Shown here: one piece after another, positions 53,624 to 55,890 of the stretch
Position numbering within the stretch: the stretch's first letter is position 1
How the letters are laid out: the number at the start of each line of letters is the position of its first letter
Origin: Brachybacterium sp. SGAir0954
GTDB taxonomy: Bacteria > Actinomycetota > Actinomycetes > Actinomycetales > Dermabacteraceae
Length of the DNA: 64,000 bases
Direction of reading: 5' to 3'
Assembly (NCBI RefSeq): GCF_005490785.1
Contig: NZ_CP027295.1
Location: forward strand, 3,224,001-3,288,000
Program-made: the position numbers and the translations under genes
The notes under the pieces: model-generated
The model's database searches: none
Told to the model about the DNA's origin: nothing
Seen by the model: the letters and a program-made list of their open reading frames with translations, nothing else

Positions 53624-53697
53624 TGCCCCCAGCGGGGTTCGAACCCGCACTGCGCCGCTTTTAAGGCGGCTGCCTCTGCCGGTTGGGCTATGGGGGC
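53624..53697 (-). tRNA. tRNA with UAA anticodon (reads UUA) and a short variable loop
   Basis: A 74-base cloverleaf. The acceptor stem GCCCCCA/TGGGGGC is perfect, the anticodon stem is GCCGC/GCGGC with loop CTTAAAA, giving anticodon UAA, and the T arm is GCGGG-TTCGAAC-CCCGC. The D stem pairs in three of four positions. The discriminator is A; CCA is not encoded. UAA should read the Leu codon UUA, but tRNA-Leu is normally class II with a long variable arm; here the variable loop is only GCAGT. Amino acid identity is therefore uncertain. Confidence 0.85.
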
Positions 53698-53709
53698 GAG
53701 GCTCCAGCC

Positions 53710-53715
53710 TATGCT
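53710..53715 (+). promoter_or_regulatory. -10 box for helicase-associated gene
   Basis: TATGCT, nine bases before the ATG at 53725, giving a transcript with a leader of only a few bases. Confidence 0.4.
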
Positions 53716-53724
53716 GGGGTGATC

Positions 53725-55890
53725 ATGACCGCTGCGATCCGGTCCCTCGCGGACTCCCTGCGAAGGTTCGGCGACGACCGCCTCGAGGCCCTGCTCGTCG
53801 CCCGGCCGGACCTCGCCTCGCCGGTGCCCCACGGGATCGGCCCGCTCGCCGCCCGCGCCGCGGGGCCCACCTCCGCCCGCCGCGCGCTCCAGGCGCTCAC
53901 GCTCCCCGAGCTGCACCTCGTCGAGGCGCTCGCCGTGCTCGAGGACGGCGCCTCCCCCGGGGCGCTCGCGGCCGCCGTCTCCGCCGAGCCGGCCGCCATC
54001 GGCCCCGCCCTCGAGCGCCTCACGACCCTCGCCCTGCTGTGGGGCGAGGACGCCCTGCACCTCGTGCGACCGCTGCGCGAGGGCCTGCGCTCCCCCGCCG
54101 GCCTCGCCCCCGCCGATCCGTCGGACCCGGATTCCGAGCAGGCGCAGGCGCTGCTGGACCGCGCCCGGGCCGACGGCGTGCCCGCACCGGTGCTCGACGC
54201 GCTCGCCTGGGGCCCGGCCGAGGTCACCGGGGACGGCGCGCTCGCCCGCACCCTCGAGGCCTCCGGTTTCCTGCGCCGCGAGGAGTCCGGGCTCGTCATC
54301 CCGCGGGCGGTGCATCTCGCCCTGCGGGGCGGCCGGGTGCGCCGCGCCTTCTCCCCGCTGCAGCCGGCGCCGGAGGGGCCCGAGGTCACCGAGCGGATCC
54401 CCGGCAGCCGGGCCGCGCAGGCCGTCGAGCGGGCCTTCGAGGCGCTGCGCCTGCTGGGCACCGTGCGCGGCTTCGACGAGGACCCGCCGGGGGTGCTGCG
54501 TCGCGGTGGGATCCCGCAGCGGGACCTGCGCCGGCTCGCCGAGCGCGCGGGCACCACCGTGCTCGCGTATGCGACCGTGCTGCAGAGCGGCTGGCAGGCG
54601 GGACTGCTGGGCCACGACGGCCAGGAGTGGCAGGCCACCCGGGACTGGGACGCCTTCCGCGAGCGGGCCGCCGAGCAGCGCTGGGCCGAGCTCGTGCTCG
54701 CCTGGGCGCACGGCCGTCACCTCGCCACGATCGTCGGCACCCCCGATCCCTCCGGGGCGACCCGCTCCCTGCTCTCCGACCTCACCCGCCGCGACGGCGC
54801 CCGCACGCGTCGCGGCAGCGCCCTGCGCGCCCTGCGGGCCGCCCCCGGGGTCGCCGCGACCGCCGAGTCCCTCGCCGCGAACCTCGCCTGGGCGTTCCCG
54901 CTGGTCCCCGCCGCGATCCTTCAGGAGGAGGCCGAGGCGGTGCTCGCCGAGGGCGAGGTGCTCGGCGTGATCGACGACGGCGCGCTCACCGTGCTCGGCG
55001 ACGCCCTCGCACTCGCCCTCGACGACGACGTCACCGCGGCCGACGCTCGCCTCGCCGCCGCCCTCCACGAGGCCTCCCCTCCCCCGGTCGACGAGATACT
55101 GCTCGACGCGGACCTCACCGCCGTCATCCCCGGCCGCCCGTCGGAGCGCCTGCTGCCGCTGCTGGACTGGGCGACGACCGTCTCCCGCGGCGGCGCGCTC
55201 ACGCTGCGCTTCGAGGCGGCCTCGCTGCGCCGCGCCCTCGCCGCAGGCCGGGACCCCGAGGACCTCCTCGCCCTGCTGACGGCGACCTCACGCACCCCGG
55301 TGCCGCAGGCGCTCGAGTACCTCGTGCGGGACGAGCAGCGTCGCCACGGGCGGGTGTGCGTCTCGCGCGCCTCGACCGTGCTCACCGCCCCCGCGGAGGT
55401 GCTGGACCTGCTGCAGGCCGCCCCGGAGGCGGCAGCCCTGACCCTGCACCGGATCGCGCCGACGGTCGCCGTGACGCTCTCCGACGCGGGCTTCGCCCTG
55501 CAGGTCGCCCGGAAGGCGGGGCTCTCCCCTGCGGCCGTCGGCCCCGACGGCCGCGCCGGCGGGCCCGAGCTCACGCACGCGCTGACCGTCGGCGGCGTGG
55601 ACACGGACCTCGTCACGGTGGACGGCCCCGAGCTGCGGCTCCCCGCGGCGGAGGCCGTGGCCCGGCTGCGCGCGGCGGAGGACGGCGAGGGCGACCTCTC
55701 CGTCACGGACCGGCTGCTCGAGGCGATCTCGCAGGGCGCCGAGCTGGACCTCGGCATCGTCGACGGCCGCGGCGGGGTCGTGGTGCGCCGGGCGCTGCCG
55801 GTCTCCCTCGACGGCGGGCGGCTGCGGGCGCGGGAGCCGGGCAAGCCCGAGGAGTTCACCGTGCTCGTGCACCGGGTGACGCTCGGCTGA
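53725..55890 (+). CDS. Helicase-associated domain protein (partner of XPB)
   Basis: A 721-residue soluble protein resembling the actinobacterial helicase C-terminal-domain-associated family that is usually encoded beside the XPB helicase. It is largely helical, with winged-helix-like segments (LADSLRRFGDDRLEALLVARPDL at the start, and PQRDLRRLAERAGTTV), and a more conserved C-terminal region (ILLDADLTAVIPGRPSERLLPLLDWA, ALTLRFEAASLRRALAAGRDPEDLLALL, PQALEYLVRDEQRRHGRVCV). No ATPase motif. Probably acts with the XPB-like protein at 59047, 3 kb away. Confidence 0.8.
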   Translation: MTAAIRSLADSLRRFGDDRLEALLVARPDLASPVPHGIGPLAARAAGPTSARRALQALTLPELHLVEALAVLEDGASPGALAAAVSAEPAAIGPALERLTTLALLWGEDALHLVRPLREGLRSPAGLAPADPSDPDSEQAQALLDRARADGVPAPVLDALAWGPAEVTGDGALARTLEASGFLRREESGLVIPRAVHLALRGGRVRRAFSPLQPAPEGPEVTERIPGSRAAQAVERAFEALRLLGTVRGFDEDPPGVLRRGGIPQRDLRRLAERAGTTVLAYATVLQSGWQAGLLGHDGQEWQATRDWDAFRERAAEQRWAELVLAWAHGRHLATIVGTPDPSGATRSLLSDLTRRDGARTRRGSALRALRAAPGVAATAESLAANLAWAFPLVPAAILQEEAEAVLAEGEVLGVIDDGALTVLGDALALALDDDVTAADARLAAALHEASPPPVDEILLDADLTAVIPGRPSERLLPLLDWATTVSRGGALTLRFEAASLRRALAAGRDPEDLLALLTATSRTPVPQALEYLVRDEQRRHGRVCVSRASTVLTAPAEVLDLLQAAPEAAALTLHRIAPTVAVTLSDAGFALQVARKAGLSPAAVGPDGRAGGPELTHALTVGGVDTDLVTVDGPELRLPAAEAVARLRAAEDGEGDLSVTDRLLEAISQGAELDLGIVDGRGGVVVRRALPVSLDGGRLRAREPGKPEEFTVLVHRVTLG

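Follow-up and report, generated by a model that had tools for sequence, protein, structure and literature searches.

What is a bacterial tRNA that carries a leucine anticodon on a body without the long variable arm, and which amino acid does it bring to the ribosome? This question is raised by a 74-nt gene on the minus strand at 53624-53697 of the window, i.e., the 64,000-nucleotide stretch of Brachybacterium sp. SGAir0954 DNA analysed here. The preliminary description of the locus had proposed a class I tRNA with a UAA anticodon and a five-base variable loop, and had suggested that it might be diverged, non-standard, or an allo-tRNA, or else a decoy that does not receive leucine. ARAGORN, the Rfam tRNA model, and the sequence itself agree on the first proposal, with the strand being minus. 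The second does not hold up: the leucine identity elements of the gene, its kinship with class II tRNA-Leu(UAA), and the placement of UUA at leucine positions in relatives all speak against it. Instead, the sequence comparisons presented below make it very probable that the gene encodes a functional elongator tRNA-Leu without the long variable arm, which is the sole reader of UUA and belongs to a class I tRNA-Leu(UUR) family.

A scan of the window with ARAGORN recovered a single tRNA, tRNA-Leu(taa) on the minus strand, and the Rfam model RF00005 matched 53697-53624 over its full length at 57.4 bits (E = 1.2e-10; gathering score 29), identifying the product as a member of the tRNA family. A class II fold, which the preliminary description had named as an outcome that a covariance scan might give, was not recovered: 53649-53653, where the long arm would be expected, holds 5 nt rather than the 10 or more with a stem that define class II. 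An antisense match to the Plastid-ycf2 model (37.8 bits, below gathering) was set aside as a mirror of the tRNA. Read 5' to 3' on the minus strand, the gene runs GCCCCCA TA GCC CAACCGGCAGA GGC A GCCGC CTTAAAA and continues GCGGC GCAGT GCGGG TTCGAAC CCCGC TGGGGGC A; CCA is absent from the gene, the next bases being ACCT. The geometry of the acceptor and T stems is the normal 7 bp and 5 bp. The D arm (53672-53688) is of the leucine type, with a 3-bp stem GCC/GGC, a C13-A22 mismatch, and an 11-nt loop (CAACCGGCAGA) that holds A14, A15, G18, G19, and A20a. The anticodon UAA (53661-53663) lies in the loop CTTAAAA (53659-53665) and is invariant in the genus alignment, and the variable loop GCAGT ends in U48, the trans-Levitt partner of A15. 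The T arm GCGGG TTCGAAC CCCGC occupies 53632-53648, and its genus consensus, GCGGGTTCGAGTCCCGC, is identical to the T arm of the class II tRNA-Leu(UAA) at three loci (L087, L088, and L093). The gene closes at 53624 with the discriminator A73, the main leucine identity base.

Conservation of the short loop in relatives, proposed earlier as a sign of function, is seen throughout the genus. The tRNA is present as a single copy in 35 of 38 genus genomes, with 83-97% identity in 34 of the 37 others; the three genomes in which no match was found are each split into 410-530 contigs. Compensatory changes in the T stem convert GCGGG/CCCGC to ACGGG/CCCGT and to CCGGG/CCCGG, and C31-G39 of the anticodon stem is replaced by A-T. 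This genus-wide presence, together with the paired changes in both stems, indicates that the gene is a maintained RNA, neither a chance match nor a relic. A conserved CCAGCATAGGCTG upstream of the tRNA was considered as its promoter and rejected; it was assigned to the divergent gene, whose start it immediately precedes, whereas its spacing from the tRNA is not constant. A conserved CAGCCTATGCTGG at 53709-53727 of the window also precedes the tRNA at most loci of the genus; it is directly 5' of the start codon of the divergent gene and resembles the -10 box of a leaderless transcript.

A genome-wide RF00005 search, with all hits typed, yielded 49 tRNAs, among which only this one has a UAA anticodon; the leucine anticodons CAG, GAG, UAG, and CAA are all on class II molecules. 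The canonical class II tRNA-Leu(UAA) that the preliminary description advised looking for was not found among the 49. A fourth tRNA with a CAU anticodon, starting with CGCTTCG, was also seen (L060; G000:C1:1229809-1229882). The rarity of UUA expected for so GC-rich a genome is evident from a sample made up of the window and ten 20-kb pieces (L077-L086), in which UUA accounts for about 1 in 50,064 codons; these counts skip the first 30% of each ORF, and two TTA codons from crude gene calls lay in probable false 5' extensions. The tRNA is, like a bldA-type tRNA, the sole reader of a very rare UUA: the codon is almost unused, yet its reader is conserved. The near-absence of the codon could be taken to mean that the gene is decaying or no longer serves translation, being a relic or having an extra-ribosomal role, and the G73 variants of some family relatives (see below) could be read in the same way. 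However, the single copy with compensatory stem changes across the genus, the absence of another UUA reader in the genome, and the rare but continued use of UUA in sampled family relatives (0.2-1 per 1000 in G022, G188, and G405) make such a state very improbable.

Returning to a functional tRNA-Leu, its leucine character emerges from the elements by which bacterial tRNA-Leu is recognized, namely A73, A15-U48, G18G19, and A20a, rather than the long arm (PMC9976931). The tRNA at 53624-53697 carries all of them. Among 193 unique members of the class I family, the variable loop is 5 nt in 187, T48 is present in 190, A73 in 190, A15-U48 in 189, and A20a in 190. A subset of 105 unique sequences that were not picked by sequence pattern gives a similar picture: all five leucine elements scored are present in 98, A15-U48 in 103, A73 in 102, and the C13-A22 non-pair in 105. 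By comparison, 110 other class I tRNAs have A15-U48 in 33 and a standard 13-22 pair in 101. The stem pairs are kept in 178-193 of the 193 members, a single position showing as many as five kinds of pair, and the 3-bp D stem itself covaries (GC, TA, CG, and AT at 10-25; CG and TA at 11-24). As in class II tRNA-Leu, members have a 10- or 11-nt D loop, a 3-bp D stem, and a 13-22 mismatch.

These likenesses extend to kinship. When tRNAs, including the class II tRNA-Leu(UAA) of relatives, were compared position by position, leaving out the anticodon and variable region, class II tRNA-Leu(UAA) was the nearest outside relative of 158 of the 193 members and of this gene (0.78 identity). A plain global alignment had instead put tRNA-Glu(TTC) and tRNA-Arg(TCT) closest within the genome; the D-arm insertion and the gaps in the variable arm made that result misleading, and it is superseded. 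Bacterial class II tRNA-Leu(UAA), including the Streptomyces bldA type, shares with the present tRNA the anticodon loop, acceptor stem, T arm, and reading of UUA, as well as the 3-bp D stem with a 10-11-nt loop, A15-U48, A20a, and A73. It differs in its variable region, an 11-17-nt arm against 5 nt here, and in its D stem, GYG/CRC with G13-A22 against GCC/GGC with C13-A22. The long arm may have been lost or never have been present; judged from these sequences, descent of class I tRNA-Leu(UUR) from class II tRNA-Leu through loss of the arm would be the simplest history.

Since UUA is too rare in the genome itself, its meaning was read from relatives. TTA falls at conserved columns that are Leu in 140 of 140 cases, over 21 genomes expected to use the class I UAA tRNA (the anticodon was read directly for several, the rest being assigned by a model match and no class II match); alignment cells whose own codon is TTA or TTG were excluded as evidence. 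The clearest single case is G524, a single contig of 1.22 Mb with 38 tRNAs, whose UUA and UUG readers are class I only and whose class II tRNA-Leu are limited to GAG and UAG. Its rpoB and leuS contain 64 TTA codons, which coincide with Leu columns in 34 of 34 informative conserved cases. As TTA sits at conserved leucine positions where the class I tRNA is the UUA reader, alignment evidence indicates that UUA is read as leucine.

This bears directly on the proposal of an allo- or reassigned tRNA, in which a class I body would be charged with another amino acid and the meaning of UUA changed in the genus. Such a reassignment would be cheap in a genome that almost never uses the codon. Further, three same-family class I tRNA-Leu(UAA) genes (L067, L068, and L124 of genomes G007, G022, and G188) have G73 in place of A73, a change expected to make leucine identity weaker; two of these three hosts nevertheless use UUA (0, 0.21, and 0.52 per 1000 in the sampled genes, respectively). 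Set against this are the intact identity elements of the present gene, its closest kin being class II tRNA-Leu(UAA), and the consistent leucine columns of the class I relatives, and we regard a reassigned codon as highly unlikely. Known allo-tRNAs include types with 8/4 and 9/3 acceptor/T stems, and the ordinary 7/5 geometry here places the gene outside them.

The reading as a tRNA-Leu also draws on the distribution of the family. A covariance model built from the genus sequences scores family members at 92-106 bits and the next-best group, class II tRNA-Leu(UAA), at 54-64 bits. Matches to this model occur in 390 of the 396 genomes in the order and, at E <= 1e-14, in 201 of the 297 in the class; the retrieved loci, when typed, are mostly class I tRNA-Leu(UAA), with some class I tRNA-Leu(CAA), and several lineages pair class I CAA with class II UAA. 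A strict pattern for class II tRNA-Leu(UAA) found it in 11 of 396 genomes but failed to pick up at least one such gene, in G243; hence, a looser pattern was used for the class. This pattern, which includes a few chance matches (e.g., G448, G632, and G489), matched 69 of 297 genomes, most of which belong to a single large genus, comparable to Streptomyces in size, and to a few further families. About 17 genomes appear on both lists, and in the one checked (G434) the class I tRNA is CAA. Class II tRNA-Leu(UAA) is the minority form in the class, and for UAA most genomes carry only one of the two forms. A scan of named genomes placed class I UAA in Mycobacterium, Nocardia, Gordonia, Rhodococcus, Corynebacterium, Microbacterium, Nocardioides, Streptosporangium, and others, and class I CAA in Bifidobacterium. 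Class I tRNA-Leu(UAA) is the normal UUA tRNA of most actinomycetes, including mycobacteria and microbacteria; its function would be ordinary, and its structure breaks the textbook rule of a long extra arm in all bacterial leucine tRNAs. The comparison with Streptomyces bldA drawn earlier therefore stands for the codon and fails for the implied norm of a long arm, since most of the class uses the class I form.

Beyond the Actinomycetes, the model matches 8 of 151 Chloroflexota genomes, and single class I records are filed under Chloroflexaceae, Planctomycetota, Rokubacteria, Deltaproteobacteria, and Acidobacteria. These outliers could possibly reflect mis-binning or transfer, because they come from metagenome bins and one lies within a tRNA array. 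That array, in a bin filed as Chloroflexaceae (L406), is a dense cluster of about 20 tRNA genes, many of unusual sequence, which includes class I tRNA-Leu(UAA) and (CAA) and may stem from a phage or plasmid. In a bin filed as Acidobacteria (L407 and L413), class I tRNA-Leu(CAA) stands in tandem with a class I tRNA-Leu(CAG), so that here a leucine tRNA with a short loop corresponds to a CUN codon.

How might such a molecule be charged? In the mechanism that we favor, LeuRS would recognize it through A73 and the tertiary core formed by A15-U48, G18G19 with the T loop, and A20a. The charged tRNA would bring leucine to UUA and probably, by wobble, to UUG, as part of a class I tRNA-Leu(UUR) family that spans the actinomycetes and has tRNA-Leu(CAA) among its members. 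For the present copy, we infer transcription, leucylation, and the UUG wobble. Every genome tested encodes LeuRS, and since class II tRNA-Leu continues to decode CUN, a single LeuRS has to handle both structural classes. The enzyme (L317-L345) comes in two lengths in the class, about 820-870 and 930-1050 residues, both found alongside class I tRNA-Leu.

Among the closest known systems, the animal mitochondrial tRNA-Leu(UUR) also lacks the long arm and is recognized via A73 and A14 (PMC9976931). However, that molecule is organellar, whereas the one described here is chromosomal, bacterial, well folded, and accompanied by class II tRNAs for CUN. Within bacteria, Mycobacterium tuberculosis tRNA-Leu-2, -3, and -5 have long variable loops, and all 45 tRNAs of this organism were detected by tRNA-seq (PMC11541572). 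The naming of three long-loop tRNA-Leu implies that the other two, a pair not discussed in that study, are short. Given that all 45 were detected and that mycobacterial relatives carry class I UAA and CAA, these data suggest that the short pair is expressed. The nearest mention in the literature concerns an array of mycobacterial tRNAs in which one tRNA-Leu(UAG) has a short variable loop (PMC6582537); that tRNA has another anticodon and exists beside a normal chromosomal copy, whereas the present gene is the sole isoacceptor. Annotation pipelines already list such genes as tRNA-Leu. A description of the family was not found in the freely accessible full-text literature searched, although an earlier notice may exist, and a review of non-canonical tRNAs yielded nothing on bacterial tRNA-Leu with a short arm. 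According to a 2023 review, tRNA-Leu is long-armed everywhere except in animal mitochondria, a rule that the class I family contradicts.

We therefore think it likely that bacteria possess a standing second structural class of tRNA-Leu, that LeuRS charges both classes against the stated rule, and that the class I tRNA-Leu(UUR) is the normal reader of UUA, and often of UUG, in most Actinomycetes, with sporadic occurrences in contigs filed as Chloroflexota, Acidobacteriota, Planctomycetota, Rokubacteria, and Deltaproteobacteria. The family puts the requirements of LeuRS to a natural test across a whole clade: the long arm had been held dispensable from in vitro work on E. coli, and here evolution itself has dispensed with it, mycobacteria included. 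It also matters for isotype calling, where a leucine anticodon on a class I tRNA can easily lead to a pseudogene or mismatch flag, for toxins and modification enzymes that use the variable arm to discriminate between tRNAs, and for how UUA regulation is read in actinomycetes other than Streptomyces. At L087 and L089-L092, class II tRNA-Leu(UAA) is adjoined by a 93-nt UAU (Ile) tRNA with a long variable arm, which is kept in several species of one genus.
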